DNA of 28,805 bases from a virus: positions 1-28,805 of IMG/VR virus record IMGVR_UViG_3300008267_000710. One strand, written 5' to 3'. A model generated the notes under the pieces. It was not told where the DNA came from. It saw only the letters and a list, made by a program, of their open reading frames with translations, and ran no database searches. A program made the translations under genes and the position numbers. Shown here piece by piece: positions 1,839 to 28,494 of this stretch; position 1 is the first letter of the stretch, and each line of letters begins with the position of its first letter.

Positions 1839-1846
1839 ATAAATAT
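1839..1846 (-). promoter_or_regulatory. TATTTAT late-promoter-like element for the gp13-like gene
   Basis: The minus strand reads GATATTTATA. The 8-mer ATATTTAT ends 15 nt before the ATG at 1823. It overlaps the last base of the preceding 78-aa gene, so this gene can be transcribed separately from its upstream neighbours. Confidence 0.5.
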
Positions 1847-2082
1847 CACCTTCTTGGGTTTACTAAATTTCTAAGGTCAATTTTAAACCTTTCATTCTTA
1901 GCTAAATTTCTAATAATATCTTGTGGAATATTGTCACCAAGTCTTAAGACTCCGTATTTTTCGCCAAAATTATTAAACAATCCTAATACTTCTTTTGTTT
2001 TTTCATCACCAATTAAAAAAGATTTATAATCATCCATCGTTAATATTGGAAACTGAATAAAACCAGACATTGTTTTATTCAT
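1846..2082 (-). CDS. 78-aa protein of unknown function
   Basis: This small basic protein has no recognised domain. It has a conserved-looking hydrophobic start (MSGFIQFPILTMDDYKSF), and an acidic-to-basic helix follows, ending in a basic tail (NLVNPRR). A second in-frame Met at residue 5 (MSGF) could be the true start. It lies 2 nt downstream of the metalloprotease-SOD gene and is very likely co-transcribed with it; its own 3' end runs into the element in front of the gp13-like gene. Nothing visible tells its role. I regard it as a real gene because of its tight packing and lack of a competing frame. Confidence 0.6.
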   Translation of the reverse strand: MNKTMSGFIQFPILTMDDYKSFLIGDEKTKEVLGLFNNFGEKYGVLRLGDNIPQDIIRNLAKNERFKIDLRNLVNPRR

Positions 2083-2084
2083 CT

Positions 2085-3893
2085 TTAATTAAGTAATCCT
2101 GGTGTCTTTGCAAGTTCGATTATTTTGTTTTTATCGTAATAAGATAATTCAACACCAGTGTTTGTATCATTTGGTATCCCAACTAATAAACCTGTTATAT
2201 CTGTGAGTAAGTATGCCAAAATATCTTCGGCTTGGTTTTTTATATCATCACTTTCGTGTCCTACAAGTAACTCTAAAAAATTTGGGTATTGACTTAATCT
2301 ATTCAATTCTTCTTTATTTTCTGGACTACCATTATATTGGAGAATAAATTTTTTCAAGGACTCTTTAATACTTTTTACATTAATTCTTTCTCCTAAATCT
2401 CTTACAACTTTACAAGAAATTTTATCACCTCTTGTTGTTGATACATCAAATGGAGAAACATTACTTATTGCTAATTGACCATCAAGAAAACCAGCAACCA
2501 TACCCTCAAAATCAAAACCTCTTGTTTTACTTTTAAGAAATCTCTTAAAGTAATTGTTAAACCTATATTTAGATCTTTCAGACACATCTTTTAAATTAAG
2601 AGTCATAAGACCCTCAAGAGTTCTATTGAAGTTTAAATTACCTCGTTCAATCTCTGCTGAGGTAATATTATTTATTGCTTCAGCAGCCGCTTCCGCATCC
2701 AAAGGTATAAGTCTAATTTTTTGTAGTTCTCGACTCATAGCCTTTTTTAAATCCATATCGATTTCTTCGTTCTCAACAAGTAATCTTGAAATAGATTCTG
2801 TTAATTTCTTTTTTGATTTTGTTTCATATAAATCATTCACAAAATCCCAATTTATATGATTCCAAAAGTTTGTGATATATTCGTCTTTTTTATTTTGATA
2901 TTTTAAATAAAAAGCGTGTTCCCATAAATCAAGACCCAATAGTGGATAACCACCACCTTTAATTATATTCATCAAAGGATTATCTTGGTTTGGCGTAAAC
3001 ATAACTTTTAATTTGTTTCCTTTTGTCAAAACTAACCAAGCCCAACCAGAACCAAAACCATCTTTAGCTATTTGATTAAACTCATCTTTTAATTTTTTTA
3101 TATTACCAAAATCTTTTTTAATTTTTTCTAAAATTGGTCCGTTTGGTATTTGTTTTTTTGGTGAAAGCATTTTCCAAAATAATGCGTGATTAAATGCACC
3201 ACCAGCATTGTTTCTAATTTTATCATCAAATTTACTGATTTCTTTAACAATGCTTTCCAAATCCTCAACCTCAATATTTTGGTCAGAAAGAAACTTATTT
3301 AATTTTTTAACATAACCTTTATAGTGTTTATTATAATGTATGTTCATTGTTTCAGAATCAATAAATTTTTTCATAGATGAATAAGCGTAAGGAAGTTTCT
3401 CAATTCCAATTCTTTTCATTTCCAAAAGAAGTTCATTTTGTGTATTTTCTTTTTCTGTTATTAAAATTTGTTCATTAATAACAGAAAGTTTTCTTTCTAA
3501 ATTTTCATACATCATATGTTCTTTTTTGGGGTATTTTTTTTCAAATTTTTTAATTAGTTGACCAGCAAAAGCGTTTGCCTCATCTTCATTTTTACCCCCA
3601 ATATTTGGTCCTTTTTCTCTTTTAAGGATGTCTCTTTGATAATCGTGAACCCACTCGTGAGCCAATGTTCTTAAAACATCCCTATTTATCCTCCCTTTAG
3701 ATAAAATTCTAATACGTCTCAAATTTTGATTGTGACTACCAGTTGACATTGTTTTATCTCTTTTATCAAGAAACTGAATAGTCAAATCATTTTTAAGAGG
3801 ATAATTTTTTTGTAAAAAATAAATAAATTCTTTATAAAATGTTTTTTCTTCTGACGAGATTTCTTTATCAGTATATAGAACTTTAACTTTCAT
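2085..3893 (-). CDS. fusion: zinc-metalloprotease-like + Mn-type superoxide dismutase + unknown C-terminal domain
   Basis: This 602-aa protein has three parts. Residues about 1-125 carry HEWVH (79-83), a zincin HExxH motif, with an acidic EDEANAFA (103-110) placed like the third metal ligand of ImmA/gluzincin-type proteases. Residues about 166-357 are a complete Fe/Mn superoxide dismutase domain: LPYAYSSMKKFI, then metal ligands His186, His236, Asp322 and His326, with His190 and the Tyr34-equivalent Tyr194 present. Gly231-Gly232 before NH and Gln303 in NQDNPLM follow the manganese-type pattern rather than the iron-type one. Residues about 365-602 match nothing I know. SOD converts superoxide to oxygen and peroxide. 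No signal peptide is seen. It starts a minus-strand unit with a TATTTAT element 5 nt upstream, next to virion genes. Domain calls are firm for SOD and likely for the protease. Confidence 0.9.
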   Translation of the reverse strand: MKVKVLYTDKEISSEEKTFYKEFIYFLQKNYPLKNDLTIQFLDKRDKTMSTGSHNQNLRRIRILSKGRINRDVLRTLAHEWVHDYQRDILKREKGPNIGGKNEDEANAFAGQLIKKFEKKYPKKEHMMYENLERKLSVINEQILITEKENTQNELLLEMKRIGIEKLPYAYSSMKKFIDSETMNIHYNKHYKGYVKKLNKFLSDQNIEVEDLESIVKEISKFDDKIRNNAGGAFNHALFWKMLSPKKQIPNGPILEKIKKDFGNIKKLKDEFNQIAKDGFGSGWAWLVLTKGNKLKVMFTPNQDNPLMNIIKGGGYPLLGLDLWEHAFYLKYQNKKDEYITNFWNHINWDFVNDLYETKSKKKLTESISRLLVENEEIDMDLKKAMSRELQKIRLIPLDAEAAAEAINNITSAEIERGNLNFNRTLEGLMTLNLKDVSERSKYRFNNYFKRFLKSKTRGFDFEGMVAGFLDGQLAISNVSPFDVSTTRGDKISCKVVRDLGERINVKSIKESLKKFILQYNGSPENKEELNRLSQYPNFLELLVGHESDDIKNQAEDILAYLLTDITGLLVGIPNDTNTGVELSYYDKNKIIELAKTPGLLN

Positions 3894-3898
3894 ATGAA

Positions 3899-3906
3899 AT
3901 AAATAT
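3899..3906 (-). promoter_or_regulatory. TATTTAT late-promoter-like element for the protease-SOD gene
   Basis: The minus strand reads GATATTTATTTC and ends 5 nt before the ATG at 3893. It occupies most of the 32-nt gap after the helicase gene. If the element works like a T4 late promoter, the transcript would have almost no leader. Confidence 0.45.
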
Positions 3907-3925
3907 CTAAAAAGAGAGAAATGGT

Positions 3926-5686
3926 TTAAATAGATTTATTGATAAGATTTAGAATTTCTTCTACAACATCGACAGATTCTACAATTTCATCACCCATTAC
4001 GGTTCCAATTACCTTTTTCTTTTTATTTAGAATGTCATAAATAACACCTTCAATAGTGTTTTCAAAAATTGGATAATAAACCAGAACATTATTTTTTTGA
4101 CCATAACGATATGCTCTATCTTCGGCTTGTGCGTGTTCTGCCGGAACAAACGATAAGTCATTCATTATTACAACCTCAGCCGCGGTTAATGTAAGACCAA
4201 CACCGGCAGCTTTTAAGTTCCCAACAAAAACTTTGATTTTTTCATTTTCCTGGAATTGGTCAACGGCGTATTGTCTTTGGACTTTATTACAACTACCATC
4301 AAGATATACAGATTCTTTGCCAAAATGATTATGAATTAGTTGTAACGTGTCGGTAAAGTTTGTAAATATGATTACTTTTTTTCCTTGATCTATAATGTTC
4401 TGAACAAATTCAATTGTGTCTTTTACTTTTTCATTTGCAATTACTTTTCTTACTTTCATTAGTTTTGAAAACTGAACTGTAAGAGAAGATGATTCATCGG
4501 TTTTATTTTTTAACCAATCATAGTACTCACCCATCAAATCTTTATATTCTTTTGATGAGGTTCTAAGATATACTGGTGTAATAATTTTATCTGGCAAATC
4601 AAGGACATCTTCCTTTAGCCTTCTTAAAATTTGTTTTGATGTTCTATCTCTTAGTTCCTCAAGATTAGATGCCCCAGTTACATTCCATACTTTTCTTTTT
4701 CCAGCTCTAAACTGAAAACCTTGGCAATAACGAATAGCATAAGCCATCCAGTTTTGTGCTACCGGACTTTCAATTATATTAAGGAGGTTATAATAATTTA
4801 TAGGTCTTGATGTCATTGGTGTTCCAGTAAGTAACCAAACTCGTTTAATATTTTTTACAAAATCATTTATAAGTTTTGTTCTTTGTGCTTGAGCATTTGA
4901 AACCATATGAGCTTCATCTAAAATCACAAGTTCAAAATTTGATTGTAATAATTGTGAATTTTCTTTATCTTCTTTACTGTGAAAGTTTTTTAATATATCG
5001 TAGTTTACGATAACAAAATCAGCTTCGGTTGAAAATTTTTTACCTTCAGCAATAAAACAGGTTCTATCTGAATAATTTGCAATTTCTCTTTCCCAATTTA
5101 TTTTAAGTGACGCTGGACAAACAATTAAAATTTTCTTTGCCCCAGTTTCAAGAGCCGCAATAATTGTTGAGGTTGTTTTTCCAAGTCCCATATCATCACC
5201 CAAAATAAATCTTCTTGACCCTACTAATTTTTCAATAGCTTCCTTTTGGTGTGATAGTGGTGGTCTGTGTTCGTATTTAGAATAATCAATATTAACCTCA
5301 TCTACCGTTTGTGATTTTATTAGTGAAGATTTTGGAACCCAGAATTCAGATAAGACATCTTTTTCAAAGAACTTACCCCAAATATGATACGACTTATCTT
5401 TTTCAACAAGTAATTTTTCAATATAAACATTTTCTGGTGTTTCTAACAAGTATCTTTCAGTTGCAAACTTCTTTGCAAAGTATGGATCCAGTTCAACCCA
5501 CTTACGAGCAACCTTTGGTTTTGTGTCAAAATAATTTACAATGTAGTCCGCTTGAGTTCTTGTCGGATAAAACTTTTTATTGGTTTCCTTTTTAGATTTC
5601 ATATAAAGGATATAGTTGTTGGCACCACTATATGACCCCAACAAATCAAGGGCTTTATGTTCTATTAGTTGTTTTTGTAATTCCAA
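3926..5686 (-). CDS. SNF2-family DNA helicase/translocase (SMARCAL1-like)
   Basis: This 586-aa superfamily 2 ATPase is of SNF2 type. Visible motifs are Walker A GDDMGLGKTT (163-172), DEAH (257-260), TGTP (287-290), and the C-terminal lobe with FTNFTD (441-446) and QAEDRAYRYGQ (520-530), whose arginines serve ATP hydrolysis. The roughly 140-residue N-terminal region precedes HQKEAIEKL, as in SMARCAL1/HARP-like annealing helicases. T4 uses UvsW, a different SF2 helicase, for fork reversal and recombination; this protein may fill that role. The start is a TTG at 5684-5686, because the next in-frame Met is residue 29. A TTATTTAT element lies 11 nt upstream. The gene diverges from the gp14-like gene. 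Confidence 0.9.
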   Translation of the reverse strand: MELQKQLIEHKALDLLGSYSGANNYILYMKSKKETNKKFYPTRTQADYIVNYFDTKPKVARKWVELDPYFAKKFATERYLLETPENVYIEKLLVEKDKSYHIWGKFFEKDVLSEFWVPKSSLIKSQTVDEVNIDYSKYEHRPPLSHQKEAIEKLVGSRRFILGDDMGLGKTTSTIIAALETGAKKILIVCPASLKINWEREIANYSDRTCFIAEGKKFSTEADFVIVNYDILKNFHSKEDKENSQLLQSNFELVILDEAHMVSNAQAQRTKLINDFVKNIKRVWLLTGTPMTSRPINYYNLLNIIESPVAQNWMAYAIRYCQGFQFRAGKRKVWNVTGASNLEELRDRTSKQILRRLKEDVLDLPDKIITPVYLRTSSKEYKDLMGEYYDWLKNKTDESSSLTVQFSKLMKVRKVIANEKVKDTIEFVQNIIDQGKKVIIFTNFTDTLQLIHNHFGKESVYLDGSCNKVQRQYAVDQFQENEKIKVFVGNLKAAGVGLTLTAAEVVIMNDLSFVPAEHAQAEDRAYRYGQKNNVLVYYPIFENTIEGVIYDILNKKKKVIGTVMGDEIVESVDVVEEILNLINKSI

Positions 5687-5697
5687 AATTCCAAGAT

Positions 5698-5705
5698 ATA
5701 AATAA
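5698..5705 (-). promoter_or_regulatory. TATTTAT element for the helicase gene (minus strand)
   Basis: The minus strand reads TTATTTATAT, 11 nt before the TTG start at 5686. On the plus strand the same bases spell TATAAATA (5697-5704), the T4 late-promoter consensus, so its direction cannot be settled by sequence alone. Confidence 0.4.
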
Positions 5706-5722
5706 AAATAATAATAAAAACA

Positions 5723-5730
5723 ATATTTAT
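5723..5730 (+). promoter_or_regulatory. TATTTAT element for the gp14/gp15-like genes
   Basis: AATATTTATC lies in the 59-nt divergent gap. The 8-mer ATATTTAT ends 15 nt before the ATG at 5746, the same spacing as at 1839 and 15562. Confidence 0.5.
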
Positions 5731-5745
5731 CAATAAAAAAAGGTT

Positions 5746-6258
5746 ATGACTAATAAAGTTCCAATTACTCGTCTTGGTAAATTTTTTGGGGATAGTGATT
5801 TCAAATTAGAAATTGAGATGGGTCAAGAATGGTTAATTGGTGATATGAACTATACTTGTGTATTGTATCGTGTAGACAAAACAAAAACCAAAACTGATGA
5901 TGTTTATGGTGAAACCGTATCTGATGGTGTTAAGTTTTTACCGCCAGTTGAGTTTAACGCTTATATTGCAATTGCCGCACCAGAAAATAAATTTCTTGGT
6001 ACCACAAAAATGGATCAAGTTGAACCTGGAAACATAACAATGTCTGTATATTTAAAGACACTTGAAGATTTAAATATTGATATAGATTTTGGAGATTATG
6101 TTGGATACTATGATAGTGAAGATTTTGTTCGTTATTATACGGTTGTAAATGATGGTCGTGTAACATCAGACATTAAACATACATACAAAGGATTCAAACC
6201 ATTTTATCGTACTATTATTGCAGCCCCAGTTGGGCCTAATGAATTTAGAGGATTATAA
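5746..6258 (+). CDS. possible neck protein, T4 gp14-like
   Basis: This 170-aa soluble protein is rich in beta-type segments. It contains DVYGETVSDG early on, which recalls the YGE segment of phage gp14 neck proteins, and a long run of alternating hydrophobics (EFNAYIAIAAPENKFLG). It is shorter than T4 gp14 (about 256 aa). The gene sits directly in front of a gp15-like gene (2-nt gap), which matches the T4 order 13-14-15 and is the main support for the call. It has an AAGG close to its ATG, one of only two possible Shine-Dalgarno-like signals in the window. If not gp14, it is still most likely a head-tail joining protein. Confidence 0.45.
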   Translation: MTNKVPITRLGKFFGDSDFKLEIEMGQEWLIGDMNYTCVLYRVDKTKTKTDDVYGETVSDGVKFLPPVEFNAYIAIAAPENKFLGTTKMDQVEPGNITMSVYLKTLEDLNIDIDFGDYVGYYDSEDFVRYYTVVNDGRVTSDIKHTYKGFKPFYRTIIAAPVGPNEFRGL

Positions 6259-6260
6259 AA

Positions 6261-7298
6261 ATGCCGTTACCTAATAAGATAAAGAAATACTTACCACTTA
6301 CTGAAAGTAAAACATTACTTCCAAGAAGACACGAAATTGCTGATATGATTTCCAAAGACGGAACATATCTTCCTAAATCTTTATTACATGCTGATTTGGA
6401 TAGAGGTTTTTTAGATTTTGTAAAGGAACAATTAGAAACCGTAGTTGAAGGAAAAAAAATTCCAGTTGTTGATATTTTAATTACAACCCAAAACTGGTCA
6501 CAGTTTGTTGAAACTTGGGATTTTCAAAACATTGATAAAAATCTTGAACCACCATTTGTCACGGTAATTAGAACACCAGAGGTTAAGTACGGAACAAATC
6601 CTGCAACAGTTTATACAATACCAAATAGAAGACAATATTATTATGCAAAAGTCCCAACTTGGGATGGTCAAAGACACGGAATGGATATTTACAAAATACC
6701 CCAACCAGTCCCAGTGGACATTAAATATACTGTAGCGATTGTATGTAATAGAATGAGAGAACTAAATAAGTTCAACCAAATTGTATTAGAAAAGTTTTCA
6801 TCAAGACAAGCCTATCAAACAATTAAAGGACATTATATTCCAATTGTGAATGATGGTATTACTGATGAATCAATTTTAGATTTAGAAAAAAGAAAAGTTT
6901 ATATTCAAAAATATGAATTTACATTACTTGGTTTTTTAATTGATGAAGATGAGTTTCAAGTAAGTCCTGCAATCACAAGAGCTTTTACAATGTTTGAAGT
7001 TGATTCGGTAACAAGAAAAAGAAAACAGAAAAAACCAATTCCAACTGAACCAGAAATCATTACATATACTTTCCCAATTTCTGAAAATAGTGTTGAGCAA
7101 AGTTTTGAATATGTTGTAAATTTAAATTTTATTAATTCCGATAATATTGAAGTCTATCAAGTTTTTATAAACGGTGATTATTATGGAAATAATATTTCTG
7201 AAATACAAATTAATAATGGTGATAATCTATCGATAACAGTTACAAGAGATGATAATACAAAAGAAAGCTCAATTCAGTTTTCAGTTTCTTTAATTTAA
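6261..7298 (+). CDS. gp15: tail sheath stabiliser / tail completion protein, T4 gp15-like
   Basis: This 345-aa protein follows the gp14-like gene with a 2-nt gap. Gp15 caps the tail at its head-proximal end and joins it to the neck. The central part (about residues 150-245) has the family features I recall: PVDIKYTVAIVCNRMREL, a helix with NQIVLEKF, then a repeated strand region ending in RKVYIQKYEFTLLGFLID. A lysine-rich linker (about 251-262) leads to an extra C-terminal beta domain of roughly 75 residues that looks Ig-like and is not in T4 gp15 (272 aa). The ORF is convergent with the small regulator gene, and their stop codons overlap. Confidence 0.6.
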   Translation: MPLPNKIKKYLPLTESKTLLPRRHEIADMISKDGTYLPKSLLHADLDRGFLDFVKEQLETVVEGKKIPVVDILITTQNWSQFVETWDFQNIDKNLEPPFVTVIRTPEVKYGTNPATVYTIPNRRQYYYAKVPTWDGQRHGMDIYKIPQPVPVDIKYTVAIVCNRMRELNKFNQIVLEKFSSRQAYQTIKGHYIPIVNDGITDESILDLEKRKVYIQKYEFTLLGFLIDEDEFQVSPAITRAFTMFEVDSVTRKRKQKKPIPTEPEIITYTFPISENSVEQSFEYVVNLNFINSDNIEVYQVFINGDYYGNNISEIQINNGDNLSITVTRDDNTKESSIQFSVSLI

Positions 7299-7459
7299 TT
7301 CTCACCATATATATCCTTTTTTTCTTTACATTTTTCTAAAATTAAGTTTTCTAAAAACTTATACATCTTTATTCCTCTCTTATCACAATACCTTTTTAGG
7401 ACCTCGTGAACTGAGATATCAATTTTAAGATTTTTTATTTTTTTTGGTTCCTTAGACAT
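7295..7459 (-). CDS. small ribbon-helix-helix-type DNA-binding protein (predicted)
   Basis: A 54-aa basic protein starting at the ATG at 7457-7459. A longer 65-aa reading from a TTG at 7492 is possible, but its first 11 codons run through the tandem repeats described below, and the ATG is the better start. The sequence has a short strand (IKNLKIDIS), then a helix, a turn at KRG and a second helix (YKFLENLILEKC), the layout of ribbon-helix-helix regulators. Such proteins bind DNA as dimers. It is the only minus-strand gene among the tail genes, with its own TATTTAT element 36 nt upstream. I infer a transcriptional regulator, possibly autoregulated; the target is unknown. Confidence 0.55.
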   Translation of the reverse strand: MSKEPKKIKNLKIDISVHEVLKRYCDKRGIKMYKFLENLILEKCKEKKDIYGEN

Positions 7460-7460
7460 A

Positions 7461-7482
7461 GGTAGAAAAAAGGTAGAAAAAA
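7461..7482 (-). repeat. two tandem 11-bp repeats at the start of the small regulator gene (possible operator)
   Basis: The unit GGTAGAAAAAA occurs twice in a row without mismatch (7461-7471 and 7472-7482, plus-strand reading). It ends 1 nt upstream of the ATG of the ribbon-helix-helix-type gene and lies between that ATG and its TATTTAT element. Direct repeats one helical turn apart are typical operators for ribbon-helix-helix dimers, so an autoregulatory site is plausible. Confidence 0.45.
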
Positions 7483-7495
7483 TTCTCACCAAAAT

Positions 7496-7503
7496 ATAAA
7501 TAG
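7496..7503 (-). promoter_or_regulatory. TATTTAT element for the small regulator gene
   Basis: The minus strand reads CTATTTATA, ending 36 nt before the ATG at 7459. This is the long-spacing class also seen at the sheath and tube genes. Confidence 0.4.
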
Positions 7504-7537
7504 TTATATAGAAGTAAAGTTTTTACCAAAAACGACA

Positions 7538-7545
7538 ATATTTAT
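7538..7545 (+). promoter_or_regulatory. TATTTAT element for the tail sheath gene
   Basis: AATATTTATA ends 34 nt before the ATG at 7580, followed by an A/T-rich leader with no Shine-Dalgarno. Confidence 0.5.
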
Positions 7546-18500: not shown

Positions 18501-19637
18501 TCGAATGTCCCACCAACAATTGTTGCAACAACAGAATCTAAACAATTTTCTTTACCAGCTATGGCCTGTAGACGTGTAATCTTGAAGGCAACATCAGTAA
18601 CACCACCAGAACCAGAAATACCGGTTAACACAGAGAGTAACCCAGAAGAAAAAAAAGTTAATGAAACTAATCAAACAAATAATGATGTTACAACAAACAC
18701 AAAAAAACCAATTCCTCAAGTTGATGTAACACAAAAAATAAAAGAAGGTATTTCTAAAAAAGTATTAAGACAATTATTTACTGAATGTGATTATTTCCAA
18801 GTAATAAAGGAATCTAATCCGATGGTTTACGATACGTTTAAAGAAAAAATAAAATATTTTAGTCCGGCATTTCACTCAACAACACCAGAAGGTTTAAATT
18901 CAAGGTTAACATTTCTTAATCAATGTACAAGACCTGGACAAACAATACCAGTTATTGGTCCAGACGGTAGACCAAAATATAACGACGCATTAAATACTGC
19001 TTTTGGTGCTCCACCTATTTTAGTTTTAAGAGTTGGTGACTTTTATCATAGTAAAATTGTACCAACAGGACTACAAATTGCGTATGACCCATTAATTTTT
19101 GATATGAACCCGGAAGGTATTGGTATACAACCTATGATTGCAACTGTAACATTATCTTTTAATTTTATTGGTGGTATGGGATTAAAAGAACCAATTGACC
19201 AACTACAAAACGCTCTATCTTTTAACTATTACGCTAATACAGAAGTTTATGATGAAAGAGCAACAGCAACTGAAGATACTTCAGCAAGAGATAAATATGT
19301 TGTTGAAAAGATATTGGCTAATCAACCAACAGTGACTCAAAATCAAGTACAAAATCAACAACCAAAAAAAGGTGGAGACACAATCGGAACAATTTTATCA
19401 ACAACCCCAATTAGTGGGACAACAAATGAAACTGGTGAAATTGAATATTCTTCACTTATGAAAGAATTGTCAGACCAAACAAATAACTATTTTAAAACAG
19501 TATTTAACCAATTAAAAACAATTCAAAACACAACAAACTATGGAATGTTACAATTAGTTGGATTCAAAAGAAAATACTCAAAAGGTGATTTGTGTTTTTT
19601 TAGTGATAATAAATTACCAACAAATATATATGGTTAA
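15585..19637 (+). CDS. baseplate tail-tube cap/initiator protein (gp48/gp54-like) with OmpA-like insertion
   Basis: This 1350-aa protein has two segments that recall tube-cap proteins of contractile injection systems. About residues 624-672 hold MWFPPYDISFSD and FLGRPEPIYTYKNTSR. About 1140-1195 hold PPILVLRVGDFYHSK, VPTGLQIAYDP and a PMIATVTLSFNFIGG strand. T4 gp48 and gp54 are only 320-364 aa. Much of the extra length is an N-terminal region with YGPDGGF/YGPQGGF repeats and a middle insertion (about 855-925) that looks like an OmpA-like peptidoglycan-binding domain (VKYMLEGTSSAPG, then YNEELAKRRISSVEKW). Long Thr/Asn-rich linkers flank the insertion. The end overlaps the next gene's ATG by 8 nt. 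The tube-cap call is by pattern only. Confidence 0.55.
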   Translation: MSDSFLSFGSSAQFRNTLIARNLAPYSVPGVFAPQSSNVNYETNLTVTNVIDSPNNLVSTNNQANILYPLNEYGPDGGFGTPIGLSNTPLAVDSNKGPYDPNDTVIDLVNEFFIDAAYVQNTYGPQGGFNNFVIITDIIKPGKIYQPYWEPPTFAPSSYSPYDILISNNPTGSNGSLSQDSYIIQLGSSVLKDLLLQNQNFYTQQSLQSQDSINFSITVDDVNDNYLSRLGGSYVPFSPIPGDYFLDGTTNRTTDTLGEAINLVAGRSTLFGGALNGGLTRAVNQSQLFLENTNDGQKGIMFANISKNIYRPAYGGSLLAGIGTNLLTTGINSLIDGFGVQLPGAYYVGSTLSEPAYLESPIDAVPTDVFGRDTQAIVFGPDVLGKEYEKNQEKINFGLKAKTYTNSGSIDGEFIWTSPKYKDNAGFYVSPGGAPTSLDDTFNFVEANYNRNLSTNIDFKPGSILDDTQRLINSADSLQGEARLKHVGNAMNQVSKVFSDGYKEMTKGSQVLRYNDNTNGTEAGIEYCRVFTKDTPYFTFGDLQKSDGITTAGRKFSYSVFDSTYNLNIAPLRGVDSTNIFNNKVKKYMFSIENLAWRTSDRPGYTYDELPACERGPNGGRIMWFPPYDISFSDDSKPDFGSTSFLGRPEPIYTYKNTSRSGSLKWKIIVDTPASLNTIIEKQLANTPKERLDSIVDSFFAGCTKYDLYELGIKFNTIPTRDLFTYQELLNNPRLTTEEFGQVVSEIPTENVVTSTEESGSAGLNTTGGQNTTTAKNNQDNPFKDLEGLGFYFNHNAPTGAGSETSAEDFGTLFENYKIQYEETKNLEPGETILGDQTYIKGEVPTLWNSVITGNFDKLSKSLIENTNNILKEGGRVKYMLEGTSSAPGTETYNEELAKRRISSVEKWIFLQKDSNGTSYQDLIKEGKIIIDSNPIGEKIIIPIGEAPFTKSINCNEIPKQKIIAVTAGGGTSNVPPTIVATTESKQFSLPAMACRRVILKATSVTPPEPEIPVNTESNPEEKKVNETNQTNNDVTTNTKKPIPQVDVTQKIKEGISKKVLRQLFTECDYFQVIKESNPMVYDTFKEKIKYFSPAFHSTTPEGLNSRLTFLNQCTRPGQTIPVIGPDGRPKYNDALNTAFGAPPILVLRVGDFYHSKIVPTGLQIAYDPLIFDMNPEGIGIQPMIATVTLSFNFIGGMGLKEPIDQLQNALSFNYYANTEVYDERATATEDTSARDKYVVEKILANQPTVTQNQVQNQQPKKGGDTIGTILSTTPISGTTNETGEIEYSSLMKELSDQTNNYFKTVFNQLKTIQNTTNYGMLQLVGFKRKYSKGDLCFFSDNKLPTNIYG

Positions 19638-20499
19638 AGATATAAATCAGGGTCAAAACCCAATTGTTATTCAGTTTTCAGGAACACCAAACGTACAATC
19701 AAAATCAGTAAGAGCCGTCCAAAATTTTTTAAAAACAACATTACAAACAAAACAAAATGAATTGAATCAAACCGTAATTGGACCTATAAATGAAATTACA
19801 AAATTCCAAGAAAATTATACATATACATTTAAAAAAATGGATGCTGTAATTTATAATGTAAATTTAACTGGAACTACAAGAGGTGGTGTTGATGGTAAAA
19901 AATTAGAAACCGGTGAAAATAAAATATATGAAATAATTCAAATTGAAGGACAACCTAATTTTGATAAAATGTTTAACCAATATAAGGATTCTGTTTGTGA
20001 TAATCTAAATAAATATGATAAGTTTATTGAAACAAAACAAATTTCAAACCCAGTGCTATTTATTGAACCAGAATCAACATTTACACAAATTGGACCAAGT
20101 GGAGAACTTAATAATAATGACACGAATAGGTTTTATATTATGATGTGTGACACATTTGTTGATGATGCAAAATATAATGTATTTAGAGAACAAATGAAAA
20201 ACATAAAAGAAATTAGAGAAACACCTTCAGAACTAAATCAGTTGGTTAAAATTTTAGATAATTTACAAGTTTTGTTTAAAAAAGAATTTGAATTAGAAAA
20301 AAAATTGTTTGCAGATGTTGAGGTTAGTCCAGAATATAAAACTTTTGATACCTTCAAATTAGATACCATTGAAACTAAGTTTAAATACACAACAGATTAT
20401 CAAGATGTTGTTGAAAGACAAAAAATAATGAGAAGAGTGTATAGCAATAACAATGATAATGTAAATGACACATTCAACCTAAAAGTAAAATTTAATTAA
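19630..20499 (+). CDS. baseplate-operon protein of unknown function
   Basis: This 290-aa protein starts at the ATG at 19630, which overlaps the previous stop (ATGGTTAA). A longer reading from a TTG at 19558 exists, but its first 24 residues lie wholly within the preceding gene, so I reject it. The protein is soluble, with an N-terminal strand segment (NPIVIQFSGTPN), a helix, and Lys/Glu-rich helices in the C-terminal half (about 185-250). I do not recognise it. Its place between tube cap and gp53-like genes, with a 1-nt gap to the latter, argues for a baseplate component or assembly factor. Confidence 0.7.
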   Translation: MVKDINQGQNPIVIQFSGTPNVQSKSVRAVQNFLKTTLQTKQNELNQTVIGPINEITKFQENYTYTFKKMDAVIYNVNLTGTTRGGVDGKKLETGENKIYEIIQIEGQPNFDKMFNQYKDSVCDNLNKYDKFIETKQISNPVLFIEPESTFTQIGPSGELNNNDTNRFYIMMCDTFVDDAKYNVFREQMKNIKEIRETPSELNQLVKILDNLQVLFKKEFELEKKLFADVEVSPEYKTFDTFKLDTIETKFKYTTDYQDVVERQKIMRRVYSNNNDNVNDTFNLKVKFN

Positions 20500-20500
20500 T

Positions 20501-20827
20501 ATGTCACAATTACAATATTTTAATAGATATAGTAACTTTTTAATCAATGGACAACAAACAATTGTTCCTTATATTACATTACCATCAAAGTCTACCGATA
20601 AAAATTATATTTATAAAGTTGGTCAATCAAGACTTGATAAGATATCACAACAATATTATGACTCACCATTTTTTGGTTGGTTAATATTACAAGCAAATCC
20701 ACAATTTACAGGAATGGAAACTAATATACCAGATGGTTCAATATTGACAATTCCATTTCCGTTACTAACTTCATTACAAGATTATAAAAACGAATTAGAT
20801 AATTATTTCTTCTATTATGGTAGATAA
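20501..20827 (+). CDS. gp53: baseplate wedge protein with LysM-like fold, T4 gp53-like
   Basis: This 108-aa protein begins YFNRYSNFLING and has a LysM-type core: YIYKVGQSRLDKISQQYY (about 37-54), then FFGWLILQANPQ, and the closing strand GSILTIPFP. T4 gp53 (196 aa) holds wedges together around the hub and contains a LysM domain, with the same YY...WW/GW pattern. This one is about half the length, so only the LysM part plus a short N-terminal arm is present. It overlaps the next gene by 11 nt. Confidence 0.7.
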   Translation: MSQLQYFNRYSNFLINGQQTIVPYITLPSKSTDKNYIYKVGQSRLDKISQQYYDSPFFGWLILQANPQFTGMETNIPDGSILTIPFPLLTSLQDYKNELDNYFFYYGR

Positions 20828-23800
20828 CAGTGAAAACATTTTAGTAGAATTTGACTATGACAACATATCAGTAATTGACCCAAACAAAGTAATTGACAGT
20901 GAAGGCAATGTAAAAGAAAGATTTGTTAAACAGGAAAATTTAGTATTCTATGCAAACTTAGAGTGTAATGTTCTACCAAGAACTAAACTTGCTGTAGGTT
21001 CCGCATTAAATGATTCTGTTAGAACAATTTCAGTTGGAAAAATTAATTTTTTAAATCCAGGTCAAAAGACTTTTTTAGAAAACACATATACAGATGAAAT
21101 TACTGGTAAAGGTTCTGTAGAGGGTAAAGGTGTTAATCAACCAAAATTAACCGCAGTATCAAATCCAAATAAAACTAATGATTATTATATCACACAAAGT
21201 TTAAATTCAAATGGAAATCCTGGTGCTGTTGATAATGGATTATTAGGTATTACTTCTATAAAATTTACTGTAAATACATCGTTTCAACCAGTAATCGACA
21301 TTGATCTTGAAGATGTTAAAGGAAGAGCTTTATTTGAAGCAGGAGATAACTCACCATATGCGGCATTTTTCCAATTACCATATCCTGCATTCTATTTAAC
21401 ATTAAAAGGATATTATGGTAAAGCTGTAAGATTTCCAATTATGTTACAAAACTTTACATCAAGTTTTGATCCATCAACTCATAACTTTAAAATCAAGTTG
21501 AGTTTTTATGGGTATAAATACACAATAATGTCTCACATAAATTGGGCAAGTATTTTGGCGGTACCCCATATGTATACCTCAACAATTAAAACCCCAACAA
21601 CATCAACTACAAATTCACAACCTAATCAAACAACAGTTAAAGAAAAAATAACAAGTAAGGGTTATGAAAAAATGAAAGAGTTATATTCTGAATATAAATC
21701 AAAAGGTTTGATTTCAGATGATTTTCCAGAAATAACTCTTACACAATTAAAAACCAGATTGGATACGTTCTTAAAAGATCTTATTGATAAATTCACAAAA
21801 GAAAATCTTGGTGTATTAACCGATATTGGGAATTATGAAACATTAGTCCAAGAGTATGAAAAAGAAGTGTATAGTTATACAGATTCTTGGGCAAAAACTA
21901 ATTTAGATTTTACAAACCCATTTATAATTAAAGACTTAGAAAAAACTAAAGTTTATACTTTTTTAAAAGAAAAAAATTTAGAACAAAGAACTACAGCAAT
22001 TAATGAATTACAAGATAAATTAATCACAAAATATAATGAATTACTTGCAAATAATTTAGTTTTAGGTTTAAATGGTAAATATGTCATTAATGGTAAAGAA
22101 ACACCAAGTAATGTACCAAATACAATAGTTTATAACACTTTTATATACAATACTGATATTACATCATTACTTAATAGTGAAATAGATTTAAACGAAACAT
22201 ATTCTTTTAGAAATGCTGGGAAAAAAGCTACTGGCGATACCGTAATACAGGAATTTAAAGAAAAAATAAGAACTGAATTAAACAATCTTCCAGATACTTT
22301 TGGTTTTTGGTTTGAAGGAACATCTAATGGTAATAAGTCTTTTGTAGAATTGATAAAAGAAATAACAACAGAAGTTAAAAAAATAAGAAAAACAATAGAA
22401 GATCAGTTAACAAAATCACTTGAGGAAAAGTTTGTTGAAAAAAATAATACAATTGGATTTGTCCCAACCGTAAGAAACGTAATGGCCGTATTTTTTGCTC
22501 AAGCTGAAGCATTTCTTAGGCTTATGGATGATGTCCATACCGCAGCATGGGAAGTAAGAGATAACCGATACAGAAAAGAAGCGGTATTTAATAAAAATAC
22601 TGCAGCCCCAAGTGTTGATTATAAAGATGTTGTTGAAAACAATACACCTATTTATCCTTGGCCACAATTAATATTACAAAGTGTAGGTGACGATAAAGAA
22701 GAAAAATTTGAACCAAAATATCCTGGAGACCTTGCTTTTGCATCATCAGTAAAAGCGTTTGTTCCAGAGATATGGCCTGAAGTTCAATTTGTTGAAGAGT
22801 TTATTAAAGGATATACAGAAAGAGAAAGTCCAGAACCAGAACCAGATTATCAAGGAAATTTACAAACAAGACCAGATAGAGTTAGTTTAAATGCTCTTGA
22901 TTTTCCGGTTAATAATGAAGTCTATCAAAATACACAAGAAGTTAAGTTTTTTTATGAAATATATGAAAGACTTATAATGAACAGTTTTTTTAGTAGACTT
23001 AATAGAAAATCTGGTGACGCATTTGGTGTTTATACTGTTGAATCAGAAATGGAAAAAGAAAGTATTAAAAAAGCTCTTGGCGATGATAATCCATTTCTTA
23101 TACAAAAATTAAAAGATTATAACATTAACGCTAGTAATTTTTTAGCTTTTTTAAGACATATTTCTAATCAAGGTGAAGGAGAAAGTTGGCAAAAATTTAT
23201 TAGAGGTGAGTTTACATCTAGCTATATAAAAAATGAAATAAGTGTACCAACCTCACTTATTAATCAAAAAATACTACAAAGTGAAATTTCGAAACCAACT
23301 TTAAGTGTTACAAGTGAAAGTAAGTTAAACTCTTATTTACAAAGTCCTTCAGCTTCGAATGTTTTTGAATTTGGTGATTTATACCCAGTTGTTAATTTGG
23401 ATTATTTGAAAAAATATTTTGCAGATGGAAAAGCTCTACAAAATTCTGTAGATGCATACAAAACAAATGACGTAATGGTGTTTAACACAGATTATAAGTC
23501 AATTTCTAATTTTTTAACATCGGATAGTGACGACACTAAAAGACCATTTACAAATTTCAATTTTAAAGGAGACACATTAAACCAACCTTTAGATTTAACT
23601 AATCTTAAAAACTTTTATCAAAATAGAAAAATAAAAGATCAATTTGTAACTGAAGGTAATGTAAATTATATTAATTATAGTGGTTCATTGATATACAATC
23701 AAACAACCTCTATGTTAAACACCCCTTATTTTGTTAATTCAATATTAAAAGGTGTTAATGAGTTTAGATTTAATACCACAGATTTGTCATCATACAAATT

Positions 23801-26800
23801 ATCGGCTTACTTATTTTTAAATAGTTTACCTTTAGCAACATTAAAAGAAAAATATAAAACTTTTAATTCTGCAACAGATTTAAGTTATTTGTTAGCTGCA
23901 TTCAAAAAGTTTGGTGCAGTACATAAATTACCATATTCTTGGATTTTAAAATACGGCTCAATTTGGTATAGATATAAAAAGTGGAAGACAAGTGGTGTTG
24001 ATATATTAGATGATGTTTGGAAAAATTTTGATTATAATGGAAATTATGACCCAAGTCTGTCAGCAGCAACTAAAAATTATTCAATAACAGCATTTACCAA
24101 TCCTTATGAAATAGTACTTCAAAATACAATTCAAAATACAACAAATATTAATTTAGGATTTTATCCTAAAGTAATTGATGATTTTAATGTTTTTTATCAA
24201 GGTTTAAAATTATTTACTGGAGGAACACAATTAAATGGTATTGGGTCTGTAACTGGAACAACATTTAGAGTCGAATCAGTATCAGATAATATTTTAGCAC
24301 CAGGACAACAAGTATTTGGTAATGCTTTTGTTACTGGGACTGTAATAGTAAACCAAATTTCTGGAACAAGTGGTGGTACTGGTGATTATACAATAAATAT
24401 TTCTCAGAATGTCCCAGTTGGAAACATTTTTGTAATTCCAAATGCACCAAAAACAGCTGTCTCATCATCATCAATACAATCGTTAATTAATGATAATTCG
24501 TTATATGTTATACCATCCGATGGTTCTAAAATAACCAAAGGACCACTTTATGATTTGAGTAATCCATTAAAAAGTTTAAATTTAAAAACTTGGTCCATTT
24601 TATCTGCAACACCAAGTAAACAATCTGTATATGTTCTACCATCTTTCGGTTCAAATATAAATCAAATAAATAATGAATGTTTTAATGCCGCAGGAAATTT
24701 AAAAATACAATTGATTAATAATTCTGCAATTTATAATGGTTCAGTTAGGTCTTTTTGGTTAGCACCACATTATGGTTATTTTGATAATAATTCACTTTTA
24801 AAACCAAATCCAGAACAATACTTTAAACAAATTTTAAATGAAGAAAGAATACAACAAAATTTCTTAATAGATGGTGATAGTACAAAATACACTAAAATTG
24901 ATGAAATGTTTTCTACGTTTGATAAAAGTGTTTTAGATTTATTTGAAAGTGAGTTTTTAAACTTTAGTAGGTCTTGTTATGATTTTAAAACAAACCTTGA
25001 TTTTAATGACGTATCTGGATCATCAACATTGTTTTCATCACTAACAAAAGGACCTACATTAGAAAATGAGGCTTTAAATTTTCAATTTTTAATGAGGTCT
25101 TTAATGAAAGTTACAAAACCAACACAAACAACACCAGATAGTATAATAACGGAAGTTACAAATTTACAAAAAGATAATTTTATTTCAGTCCTTACCAATT
25201 TTTTAAATTATAATGTGGTATTAAGATTAGGAAACCCAACAAACTTTAATAAAAAATTATACTATACATTTTCTACTGAATATTTACAAGACCCAATAAT
25301 ATATCAAGGATATAATCAAGGTTCACCAGGTTATTTACCTTTTAGTGGTGGAAACATTACTTTAGCACAATCAAAGACAATATACCCAGACGCATGGAAT
25401 GCTATGGAATTATATATTGGTTTTTCAGAAATACCTGAATTAAAATATTCAGACAATGGTTCTTACTTGACAGATTTTTTTATTGATGTTAATGTAAAAT
25501 TTGATGAAAAAAATGTAATAGATTTTGCACCACTTATTAAAATATATGCAACAGAAAAATTGAAAGACCCTACATTTAATGGACAAAAGTTTTTTAATTC
25601 AATGAACACATATATTAATGAATCAAACAATTATATCAATAATGTTATAAATGTTATGATGCCAGCACTTCGTAATGAATTAAATAGTGTTCAGATAATA
25701 TCAGCTGGTGCTCAAAATAATAAAGAATTAGGTGAACAAACTAAATTTGAACTTTGGGATTTATTTAAATCAATAAATGATACTTGGATTTCTGGATATG
25801 ATTTAAAAACAAAAACACTATTTGAAGATGTTTTGTTATTTGATAGGGCAAGTAGAGATGTTGGACAAAAAATAATTTTGGATATATTCAAAATAAAAGA
25901 GTTAATTGATAGTAGACAATATAAAAATAATTTTCTTGATATAATTCACACAATACTTAGTGAAAGTAATTTCGTTTATTTTAACCTACCGTCATTCTGT
26001 AATTTTTATAATGTACAAGATGCGCAAAAAAATCCATTACCAAGAGCTGAAGGAACCCTTGAATTTGCTAACTCATTATTTGGTACATTTTTAAATCTTG
26101 ATTATAGAGAGACATCACCAAAACTTGTTTGTTATTACACAAACAAGAATAGTGAACATTTAGATATGAAAAATAATATCGACTATAGGTTTAGAAATGA
26201 TGCTTTTGATTTAAGAAGAGCCAGTGACAATCCTTTAGTTCAAAATTTACAGAATAAAAAAGACTGGGATAAATCTAATAGGGTTGTAGGGTTTAATATT
26301 GATATTGGTGTACAAAACCAACAGATTTTTAAATCATTCGACGTTTCTCAAACACCTGGAAAACCAACATCAGAATCCCTTGAGGTTTTAAACCAAATGG
26401 CAAATATTGATAAGAATAGAAAATCATCAACACAAAATAATTCTTTATACAATTTGTATAAAAATAGAAGTTATTCTTGTAGTGTTGATATGTTTGGTAA
26501 TGCACTCATTCAACCAATGATGTATTTCAATTTAAGAAATGTACCAATGTTTAGCGGACCTTACCTAATCACAAATGTAACACATTCAATTAGTGAAGAT
26601 GGATTTAATACATCGATTGAAGGGACAAGACAACCATTTTACGCTTTTCCAAAAATTGATAATTTTATTCAAACTTTAAGTTCAACAATTTTAAAAACAA
26701 TTCAAGAAAAAATACAACAAAAAGATAGAGAATACCAATCATCTTCCGAAAACATAATTAAACAAAAAAGTATTATAATTGATAATGTAACGGACGCAAC

Positions 26801-27431
26801 AGAAGATTTAACACCAAGTCAAGATTGTTTTGAAAAATTAGTTGGAACATATAGAAGTTATAAACCAGCCGATAACCCTTCATTAAAATTTGTTTCATTT
26901 ATTGAAGCTAAAAAGATAATATATGAAAGACTTAGAGTTCTACTACCAGGACAACAAGATTTTGAAAGAAATAATTTTGCACAATTTATTTTTAGTACTA
27001 TGTATGCGGATTCTGGAACTGGTACTGGGTTTAGTGCATATGAGTGGAATTTCTCAACAATAAATCTTACAACAAATTATGGTCAAGTTGGTTTAAATTA
27101 TTTTGGGACAAAATTTTTCTGTGTCAATAAAGGACAAAGTATTAATAATTTACCATTAGCAACTTTTGAATCGTTTAATGATTTTATAGATTTCTTTATT
27201 CAGAAATTCGCTGGTAAATCAACTTTATTAAATGAGGAACAACTGACATTGAGTGGTGTGTCTAAAATATATGTATTAAATTGGCCATTAGAACAACCAG
27301 AAAATGTTTACAATGAATTAACTGAAACTGATAAAAATTTATTAGACGAAAAAATTAAAAAAGGTTCTGAAGTTTTTATAGCAACACCATATACTCCGCC
27401 ACCAGCACCAACCCCCACACCAACACCATAA
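20817..27431 (+). CDS. giant baseplate hub-like protein with possible C-terminal cell-wall hydrolase domain
   Basis: At 2204 aa this is the largest protein in the window. The N-terminal part (about 150-260) has a hub-like strand pattern: SFQPVIDIDLEDVKGRALFE, then YPAFYLTLKGYYG. Near 1915-1942 it has PYLITNVTHSISEDGF followed by TRQPF, typical of gp27/phage-D-type hub proteins. In between are long helical regions and a beta module (about 1141-1212) with GTTFRVESV and GGTGDYTINIS. The last about 200 residues (2002-2204) resemble glucosaminidase-type domains (FAQFIFSTMYADSGTGTG, then a cysteine-containing strand and ATFESFNDFIDFFIQKF). The tail ends in PTPTPTP. It follows gp53, where T4 places the hub lysozyme gp5. 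The N- and C-terminal calls are inferences. Confidence 0.55.
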   Translation: MVDNSENILVEFDYDNISVIDPNKVIDSEGNVKERFVKQENLVFYANLECNVLPRTKLAVGSALNDSVRTISVGKINFLNPGQKTFLENTYTDEITGKGSVEGKGVNQPKLTAVSNPNKTNDYYITQSLNSNGNPGAVDNGLLGITSIKFTVNTSFQPVIDIDLEDVKGRALFEAGDNSPYAAFFQLPYPAFYLTLKGYYGKAVRFPIMLQNFTSSFDPSTHNFKIKLSFYGYKYTIMSHINWASILAVPHMYTSTIKTPTTSTTNSQPNQTTVKEKITSKGYEKMKELYSEYKSKGLISDDFPEITLTQLKTRLDTFLKDLIDKFTKENLGVLTDIGNYETLVQEYEKEVYSYTDSWAKTNLDFTNPFIIKDLEKTKVYTFLKEKNLEQRTTAINELQDKLITKYNELLANNLVLGLNGKYVINGKETPSNVPNTIVYNTFIYNTDITSLLNSEIDLNETYSFRNAGKKATGDTVIQEFKEKIRTELNNLPDTFGFWFEGTSNGNKSFVELIKEITTEVKKIRKTIEDQLTKSLEEKFVEKNNTIGFVPTVRNVMAVFFAQAEAFLRLMDDVHTAAWEVRDNRYRKEAVFNKNTAAPSVDYKDVVENNTPIYPWPQLILQSVGDDKEEKFEPKYPGDLAFASSVKAFVPEIWPEVQFVEEFIKGYTERESPEPEPDYQGNLQTRPDRVSLNALDFPVNNEVYQNTQEVKFFYEIYERLIMNSFFSRLNRKSGDAFGVYTVESEMEKESIKKALGDDNPFLIQKLKDYNINASNFLAFLRHISNQGEGESWQKFIRGEFTSSYIKNEISVPTSLINQKILQSEISKPTLSVTSESKLNSYLQSPSASNVFEFGDLYPVVNLDYLKKYFADGKALQNSVDAYKTNDVMVFNTDYKSISNFLTSDSDDTKRPFTNFNFKGDTLNQPLDLTNLKNFYQNRKIKDQFVTEGNVNYINYSGSLIYNQTTSMLNTPYFVNSILKGVNEFRFNTTDLSSYKLSAYLFLNSLPLATLKEKYKTFNSATDLSYLLAAFKKFGAVHKLPYSWILKYGSIWYRYKKWKTSGVDILDDVWKNFDYNGNYDPSLSAATKNYSITAFTNPYEIVLQNTIQNTTNINLGFYPKVIDDFNVFYQGLKLFTGGTQLNGIGSVTGTTFRVESVSDNILAPGQQVFGNAFVTGTVIVNQISGTSGGTGDYTINISQNVPVGNIFVIPNAPKTAVSSSSIQSLINDNSLYVIPSDGSKITKGPLYDLSNPLKSLNLKTWSILSATPSKQSVYVLPSFGSNINQINNECFNAAGNLKIQLINNSAIYNGSVRSFWLAPHYGYFDNNSLLKPNPEQYFKQILNEERIQQNFLIDGDSTKYTKIDEMFSTFDKSVLDLFESEFLNFSRSCYDFKTNLDFNDVSGSSTLFSSLTKGPTLENEALNFQFLMRSLMKVTKPTQTTPDSIITEVTNLQKDNFISVLTNFLNYNVVLRLGNPTNFNKKLYYTFSTEYLQDPIIYQGYNQGSPGYLPFSGGNITLAQSKTIYPDAWNAMELYIGFSEIPELKYSDNGSYLTDFFIDVNVKFDEKNVIDFAPLIKIYATEKLKDPTFNGQKFFNSMNTYINESNNYINNVINVMMPALRNELNSVQIISAGAQNNKELGEQTKFELWDLFKSINDTWISGYDLKTKTLFEDVLLFDRASRDVGQKIILDIFKIKELIDSRQYKNNFLDIIHTILSESNFVYFNLPSFCNFYNVQDAQKNPLPRAEGTLEFANSLFGTFLNLDYRETSPKLVCYYTNKNSEHLDMKNNIDYRFRNDAFDLRRASDNPLVQNLQNKKDWDKSNRVVGFNIDIGVQNQQIFKSFDVSQTPGKPTSESLEVLNQMANIDKNRKSSTQNNSLYNLYKNRSYSCSVDMFGNALIQPMMYFNLRNVPMFSGPYLITNVTHSISEDGFNTSIEGTRQPFYAFPKIDNFIQTLSSTILKTIQEKIQQKDREYQSSSENIIKQKSIIIDNVTDATEDLTPSQDCFEKLVGTYRSYKPADNPSLKFVSFIEAKKIIYERLRVLLPGQQDFERNNFAQFIFSTMYADSGTGTGFSAYEWNFSTINLTTNYGQVGLNYFGTKFFCVNKGQSINNLPLATFESFNDFIDFFIQKFAGKSTLLNEEQLTLSGVSKIYVLNWPLEQPENVYNELTETDKNLLDEKIKKGSEVFIATPYTPPPAPTPTPTP

Positions 27432-27468
27432 TTAAAATAAAGATGTTGATGTTTTTTTAATTAACAAG

Positions 27469-27476
27469 ATATTTAT
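27469..27476 (+). promoter_or_regulatory. TATTTAT element for the last two late genes
   Basis: GATATTTATAA ends 12 nt before the ATG at 27489. A weak all-A/T hairpin (27429-27437 with 27455-27463) precedes it and might slow read-through, but is too weak to call a terminator. Confidence 0.5.
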
Positions 27477-27488
27477 AATAAAAAAAAT

Positions 27489-27716
27489 ATGAGTAACACA
27501 AAATTAATATTGGACAACTATCTTGGTAAGAATACCAGAATGTCAGAGAAAGAATTAGGAAATGGTATGAAACAAGTTTGTGACTTGGATACCGGTGATT
27601 GTTATGTTGTAAAAGAAAAAGATGGTCTTATAGAAAGAGTTGACAACACTATGAAGACAAACAGAAAAATCCAAGTTGAAACAACTACAGGAATAAAAAC
27701 TTTACTAAATGGGTAA
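27489..27716 (+). CDS. 75-aa protein of unknown function
   Basis: A small charged protein with two Cys (residues 31 and 38, in QVCDLDTGDCYVV) and a beta-hairpin-like middle. It is not one I recognise. It lies 2 nt before the proline-rich gene, and both share one upstream TATTTAT element. The CxxxxxxC spacing is not a known metal motif. It is kept as a real gene because of the element and the tight packing. Confidence 0.65.
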   Translation: MSNTKLILDNYLGKNTRMSEKELGNGMKQVCDLDTGDCYVVKEKDGLIERVDNTMKTNRKIQVETTTGIKTLLNG

Positions 27717-27718
27717 AA

Positions 27719-28390: not shown

Positions 28391-28427
28391 AGTTTAAGGT
28401 CGTAATTTTAGACCTTAAACTTTTTTT
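28391..28427 (+). terminator. strong rho-independent terminator
   Basis: AGTTTAAGGTC (28391-28401) pairs perfectly with GACCTTAAACT (28411-28421) around a 9-nt loop, followed by T residues to 28427. It begins directly after the TAA of the 223-aa gene and insulates the gp32-like gene. Confidence 0.92.
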
Positions 28428-28432
28428 ACTTA

Positions 28433-28461
28433 TTGACTGCGACACTATTTTAACTTATACT
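28433..28461 (+). promoter_or_regulatory. sigma70-type promoter for the gp32-like gene
   Basis: TTGACT (28433-28438) and TATACT (28456-28461) are separated by exactly 17 nt, 33 nt before the ATG. This differs from the TATTTAT element of the late genes and fits an early or middle gene. A Bacteroidota-type reading (TTG, then TA-N2-TTT about 21 nt later) is also possible but matches less well. Confidence 0.6.
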
Positions 28462-28494
28462 TTCTATTGTAAACCTTTAAAAACAAATACATAT

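Follow-up and report, generated by a model that had tools for sequence, protein, structure and literature searches.

Late transcription of the gp55 type has been worked out for T4 and related phages that infect, for example, E. coli and cyanobacteria, and region 2 of sigma factors reads the non-template strand. T4 late promoters have no -35 element and possess an AT-rich melting region downstream of the box (PMC2988020), and gp55 accommodates the non-template bases A-12 (Y97), A-9 (N13, H95) and A-8 (T99) in pockets (PMC7892883). In the host promoter of F. johnsoniae, which is marked by T-12 and A-11, A/T-rich blocks centred at -18 and -28 outweigh any motif at -33 (PMC6847099). The moraphages, described in 2025, have the tail tube, sheath, gp25, uvsW, PhoH and an RNA polymerase sigma factor among their core genes (PMC12619734); in the text of that paper the word "promoter" occurs once, in another context.

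The window, i.e., the whole stretch of DNA analysed here, is a linear fragment of 28,805 bases of a virus record with 30% G+C, and was originally predicted to carry a TATTTAT element at nearly every transcription-unit start on both strands. All 11 exact copies named in that prediction are present, seven on the plus strand and four on the minus strand, and the positions given for them were off by one base. The three spacing classes described earlier also hold, with 3-5, 11-18 and 34-36 nt between the end of the box and the start codon, two of these spacings depending on uncertain TTG starts (SNF2 at 5686 and Arc-like at 7492); because gene calling relied on a simple open-reading-frame finder, some gene starts are wrong. 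Searches with the window's tail tube and baseplate proteins found hundreds of related IMG/VR contigs, and about 158 loci were read. Since related contigs are not independent, similarity filters were applied: in the ortholog promoter test, run for each gene of the window, only upstream regions less than 80% alike were kept ("dissimilar orthologs" below), and for promoter anatomy 365 sites less than 60% alike outside the box were kept from 1125. The features of the window are as follows, the fractions being those of dissimilar orthologs that carry the box.

1839..1845, minus strand: TATTTAT box, candidate promoter of a 374-aa gene (699-1823); 5 of 5
3899..3905, minus strand: TATTTAT box of a 602-aa gene with a superoxide dismutase domain (2085-3893); 13 of 15
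5698..5704, minus strand: TATTTAT box of a SNF2/UvsW-like helicase gene (3926-5686, start codon uncertain); exact copy in gap
5724..5730, plus strand: TATTTAT box of a 170-aa gene (5746-6258); 28 of 28
7496..7502, minus strand: TATTTAT box of an Arc-like gene (7295-7492; the true start may be an ATG near 7459); exact copy
7539..7545, plus strand: TATTTAT box of the tail sheath gene (7580-10918); 37 of 37
10938..10964, plus strand: terminator-like hairpin and T run, 3' of the sheath gene and just before the next box; consensus match alone
10977..10983, plus strand: TATTTAT box of a HAD-like gene (10988-11668 plus 11611-11952); 41 of 64
11953..11972, plus strand: AAGTAAATAGAAAAATTTTT, conserved element 30 to 11 nt upstream of the tube-gene box
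11983..11989, plus strand: TATTTAT box of the tail tube gene (12026-12514); 65 of 66, and 66 of 66 loci
13554..13560, plus strand: TATTTAT box of a 650-aa tape-measure-like gene (13579-15531); 30 of 30
15563..15569, plus strand: TATTTAT box of a 1350-aa gene (15585-19637); 55 of 55
27470..27476, plus strand: TATTTAT box of a 75-aa gene (27489-27716); exact copy in gap
28433..28461, plus strand: TTGACT-17-TATACT, sigma-70-like candidate promoter of the gp32-like gene, of the class without the box

Over the whole window, TATTTAT is not enriched: 28 copies are seen on both strands against 23.2 expected, and 21 of 100 shuffles reach 28. By contrast, 11 of the 13 upstream non-coding gaps of at least 15 nt contain it, in the sense orientation relative to the gene behind, against a mean of 1.16 and a maximum of 6 when these gaps were dinucleotide-shuffled 5000 times. 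Among the 7-mers of the gaps it ranks first, and a count of 11 was reached by no 7-mer in any shuffle. Given that there is no window-wide excess and that the excess is confined to upstream gaps, the 16 copies located inside genes are background, as the original prediction had suspected.

The related contigs agree with the window. In their upstream regions TATTTAT occurs in the sense orientation in 743 of 1002 cases and in the antisense orientation in 182 of 1002, and it is the commonest and most strand-biased upstream 7-mer in the 158 loci. As was also proposed, the box is missing before the gp32-like gene at 28495 and before tightly packed genes, the dissimilar orthologs of which have it in 1 of 82 cases (0/26 for the 345-aa gene, 1/35 for the gp25-like gene and 0/21 for the 2204-aa gene). 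Near-universal presence at unit starts and this near absence before packed genes identify the box as a unit-start signal. A further, variant site had been placed at about 12617, ahead of the baseplate gene at 12641, and this one has to be abandoned as a promoter: only 10 of 80 dissimilar orthologs carry the box there, and many have instead a terminator-like stem and T run. TATTTAT is absent from 40 upstream regions of LR756508.1 (180001-230000), an uncultured phage of 484 kb that has a similar sheath and gives a weak gp55-like match.

Several of the individual sites deserve comment. The box of the 170-aa gene is divergent from that of the SNF2/UvsW-like gene, and the tube box overlaps a reverse-strand TATTTAT at 11988-11994. 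The box of the 602-aa gene stands 5 nt ahead of the ATG in the window, with a box-to-ATG distance of 12 in 11 of 13 orthologs, and the message of this gene is possibly leaderless. The 602-aa protein itself, encoded behind a late box, contains an iron/manganese superoxide dismutase domain preceded by an HExxH-like stretch, and its C-terminal part is without an assigned domain. The two overlapping HAD-like frames correspond to the halves of a protein of about 320 aa in relatives; the broken frame in the window is either a sequencing error or a real mutation. The element AAGTAAATAGAAAAATTTTT lies directly 3' of the gene that precedes the tail tube, about 54-73 nt ahead of the tube ATG. Its form AAGTAAATAG is found in most tube-bearing relatives in about one copy per contig, nearly always right before the tube gene, and was accordingly discarded as a general upstream element.

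The genes behind the box are predominantly those of the virion. In the cultured Flavobacterium phage immuto (NC_055915) and Microcystis phage Mel-JY01 (PP395634), 15 of 28 structural or lysis genes have it compared to 1 of 26 replication or metabolism genes (p=4.8e-5), counting named genes only, because wider class labels took in hypothetical genes by neighbourhood. Three long contigs from the group to which the window belongs, with classes assigned by homology, give 14/18 and 4/18. The virion genes concerned lie on either strand. On the replication side, the box is found at the replicative helicase gene in each of these three contigs and at ssb in one; conversely, the capsid genes of immuto and Mel-JY01 are without a box despite having their own gap. 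For comparison, ATAAATA is found in the sense orientation at 12 of 18 late genes in T4 itself. These counts indicate that the box belongs to the late class and a few replication genes and is not a universal promoter. As judged from the upstream regions, TATTTAT appears to precede almost every independently transcribed late gene in a large, mostly freshwater group of T4-related phages.

The relationship of this box to the T4 late promoter was originally interpreted as an inverted polarity or, alternatively, as the signature of a different sigma factor. Indeed, TATTTATA is the reverse complement of TATAAATA, the late consensus that T4 has on the non-template strand and that the box does not match. 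Aligned in the same orientation, however, TATTTATA and TATAAATA are identical at 6 of 8 positions, and the two that differ are the middle ones, where A-10 and A-9 of T4 are replaced by T. Because only two changes are needed in the same orientation and a change of specificity is simpler, the reversed-promoter reading is rejected, and inverted polarity is unneeded. A literature search for TATTTATA as a phage late promoter returned a single phage paper, in which it is the template strand of the T4 box; for TATTTAT no published report was found, in a literature mostly without subscription journals.

The 365 sites of the anatomy set reveal additional regularities. In the consensus, A or T mostly follows TATTTAT, and the base preceding the box is A in 52%, G in 19%, C in 15% and T in 15% of the sites (purine, 71%). 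Positions -16 to -14 from the first T have a G+C content of 3-9%, compared to about 25% further upstream, and an A-rich stretch is found at +11 to +13 downstream of the box (A, 67-71%). No -35 hexamer was found among these sites. With the first T numbered -12, the A/T block occupies positions -28 to -26 and the A-rich stretch coincides with the start site; RNA would thus probably start about 12 nt after the first T, within that stretch. The distance from the box to the start codon ranges from 7 to more than 60 nt and, counted from the first T, forms three groups, of about 11-12, 18-28 and 37-49 nt, that track gene families: sheath and tube are long, tape measure and the 1350-aa gene are intermediate, and superoxide dismutase and HAD-like genes are short. 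In about 20% of the sites the box ends 3-6 nt before the start codon, and the short-distance group would give rise to leaderless or nearly leaderless messages.

A candidate for the protein that reads the box was detected outside the window. Among the first 12 long contigs, a weak match to the T4 late-sigma profile phrog_234 was obtained in one, G005 (the others proved too short to include the gene), and likewise in immuto, which led to a gp55-like family; a search with the profile phrog_12791 gave zero matches. The protein, of 230-270 aa, is encoded in G005, in immuto (gp118, "hypothetical protein") and in Mel-JY01, all three of which have TATTTAT, and the family comprises at least 422 matched stretches of viral contigs. 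The best PHROG is phrog_234 ("late sigma transcription factor") in 22 of 23 members, with a best E-value of 2.4e-4, and the top sequence match in the Protein Data Bank was both times T4 gp55 (7d7c), albeit weak (E-values of 0.085 and 0.23); hhalign against T4 gp55 gives an E-value of 0.0023 with a probability of 12%. The predicted structure (mean pLDDT 70, pTM 0.38) retrieves sigma factors alone among the matches listed, namely sigmaE region 2 with a Z-score of 8.8 and gp55 (7d7c) with 7.8 over 124 residues; homology and fold thus both point to sigma region 2, and no match of the C-terminal domain to sigma region 4 is among the structure matches listed. Each of these lines is modest alone, but together they make it likely that the family is a diverged gp55-like sigma. 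In the profile alignment to T4 gp55, which is weak, Y97 corresponds to an invariant Tyr, H95 to Tyr or Phe, such as Y106, and T99 to Gly, Gln or Ser, such as G110; retention of A-12 and A-8 along with the change at -10 and -9 would fit a changed -9 pocket on this alignment.

Upstream regions around the gp55-like genes have the box in the sense orientation in 171 and in the antisense orientation in 28 of 283 cases, and the gp55-like gene itself has it upstream in 1 of 18. Of 17 long contigs with a gp55-like gene, 12 also encode a homolog of the window's tail tube, with 94% identity in G028 and 80% in G013 (304 kb), and the longest also encode an RpoD-like sigma. The suggestion that a gp55-like sigma be sought elsewhere in the genome was thus borne out in close relatives, and the proposal that the sigma factor differs fits as well. 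The distance from the gp55-like gene to the tube gene is about 54-62 kb in G013, G014, G016, G022, G027 and G028. Eleven box-bearing contigs gave no gp55-like match, apart from a cross-match of the RpoD-like sigma in G001, and all of them are fragments; in G001, the longest of the window's nearest relatives, the absence of the gene can be explained by the end of the contig about 50 kb away on that side. The profile of the T4-type clamp (phrog_223) matched only T4 itself, although a divergent clamp could escape this profile.

We hypothesize that TATTTAT(A) is the -10-type box of late promoters that are read by a phage sigma of the T4 gp55 kind on the host RNA polymerase, and assign to this reading a probability of roughly two in three; the gp55-like protein is the best candidate for the reader. 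Under this hypothesis, the gp55-kind sigma, made earlier in infection, would bind the host RNA polymerase and its region 2 would read the box on the non-template strand. Each copy would start one transcription unit on the strand along which it points, with RNA beginning some 12 nt past the first T, in many cases at A, and with no use of a -35 element, and the genes packed behind the first one would be transcribed by read-through.

The alternative that best survives, though we consider it unlikely, is that the box is the -10 element read by the phage's own RpoD-like sigma. This protein of about 266 aa, present in 9 of the first 12 long contigs, resembles RpoD over its full length and matches Sigma70_r2 strongly (63-65 bits), and the box has T-12, A-11, T-8 and T-6 in common with the Bacteroidota consensus TAHHTTTG (PMC6847099). 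However, immuto and Mel-JY01 use the box and are without such a sigma, for which reason this reader was demoted. In genomes that carry the RpoD-like sigma, a more natural target is present: the gp32-like (ssb) gene has TTGACW-17-TATAMT promoters. At the corresponding position, each of 3 relatives has a TTGAC-type element paired with TATATT, TATAAT or TATACT, and immuto and Mel-JY01 contain few such pairs. What singles out the ssb promoter is its relatives alone, since a scan with the sigma-70 consensus over positions 10000-28805 of the window found 91 matches against 101 expected. In searches against genome contigs, the RpoD-like sigma is similar to proteins of Spirochaetes and Bacteroidota at 35-40% identity, which indicates no host. 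One of the contigs that encode it, G001, has a further small ECF-type sigma (206-aa frame; 137019-137213, minus strand, locus L173).

Other promoter classes can be glimpsed in the same genomes. In upstream regions without the box in G001, G005 and G006, TAnnTTTG occurs 34 times in the sense and 10 times in the antisense orientation, mostly outside the structural region, and these sites are probably early promoters read by the host machinery. In Mel-JY01 (loci L208-L211), TTGCATA shows a strong strand preference in front of genes (11 to 0) and is perhaps part of an early promoter. For the large T4-related Bacteroidota phages, one could speculate about a cascade in which TAnnTTTG would be followed by TTGACW-17-TATAMT with the RpoD-like sigma and then by TATTTAT with the gp55-like sigma, a scheme that we consider more doubtful than credible. 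If it is true, most phage transcription escapes the unusual promoter code of the host.

There is a slim chance that the box is read by a primary or alternative sigma of the host, the timing being set by a phage activator or a modification of the polymerase. The A/T blocks, which precede the presumed start by about 27 and 19 nt, are near those at -28 and -18 in F. johnsoniae, and the distant phage Ma-LMM01 uses the host SigA for all its promoter classes (PMC5780444). Nevertheless, in 152 upstream regions of two Pedobacter genomes TATTTAT occurs 9 times in sense and 9 times in antisense, i.e., without a preferred strand, against 32 to 16 for TAnnTTTG, so that the box is not a general feature of Bacteroidota; and the same box is present in Mel-JY01, reported from a cyanobacterium, the GGAG-like ribosome sites of which suggest a host outside Bacteroidota. 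A slimmer chance still is left for the box being an operator for a phage activator rather than a sigma recognition site: the variable distance to the start codon would suit an operator, but, as in promoters, the spacing from the box is constant both for the A-rich stretch (+11 to +13) and for the A/T block (-16 to -14), and no other -10-like element was found downstream of the box. Hardly any credence can be given to an effect of translation starts or composition in A/T-rich leaders of the Bacteroidota type, which are A-rich and in many cases without a Shine-Dalgarno sequence and to which the sites that end next to the start codon might be ascribed, in view of the strong strand preference, the absence before packed genes, the long and variable distances and the lack of strand preference in Pedobacter.

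In a very abundant phage group, one cultured member of which, immuto, infects Flavobacterium sp. LMO8, a changed box co-occurs with a gp55-like protein that has diverged strongly and had escaped annotation. If late promoters of the gp55 kind are the correct interpretation, the box would provide a ready signal to find late genes in uncultured genomes, and several hundred "hypothetical" proteins would gain a candidate function. The system would also amount to a natural experiment in which sigma region 2 shifts its -10 specificity from AA to TT in conjunction with a divergent Bacteroidota RNA polymerase.

Among the described systems, the primary promoter of Bacteroidota (TAHHTTTG, F. johnsoniae) resembles the present one in the four shared bases and in the A/T blocks near -18 and -28, and differs in that the box, with A at -7 and no G at -5, does not match its -7 element. 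Known variants of the late box have changes elsewhere: that of Aeromonas phage Aeh1 has a/gC at -13/-12 (PMC2988020), and for cyanophages NATATAATA is cited in PMC3184105; none of them reads TATTTAT. The moraphages (PMC12619734), freshwater jumbo phages of 200-307 kb related to the T4 group with predicted Bacteroidota hosts, are probably the same group as the contigs studied here or its sister. The closest parallel is the T4 late promoter with gp55 (Straboviridae), which likewise combines a single AT-rich -10 box, no conserved -35 element and an AT-rich stretch around the start, located downstream of the box, with placement before virion genes on both strands and a protein with sigma region 2 in the same phages. 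Unlike in T4, TT replaces A-10 A-9, the box-to-ATG distance is often very short, no T4-type clamp was found with the profile used, and the gp55-like protein is only weakly similar to gp55 and carries an additional helical domain at the C terminus, the fold of which was not recognised. As a kind, the gp55-type late promoter is known; what is new is the variant, with its box, its host group and its diverged sigma.
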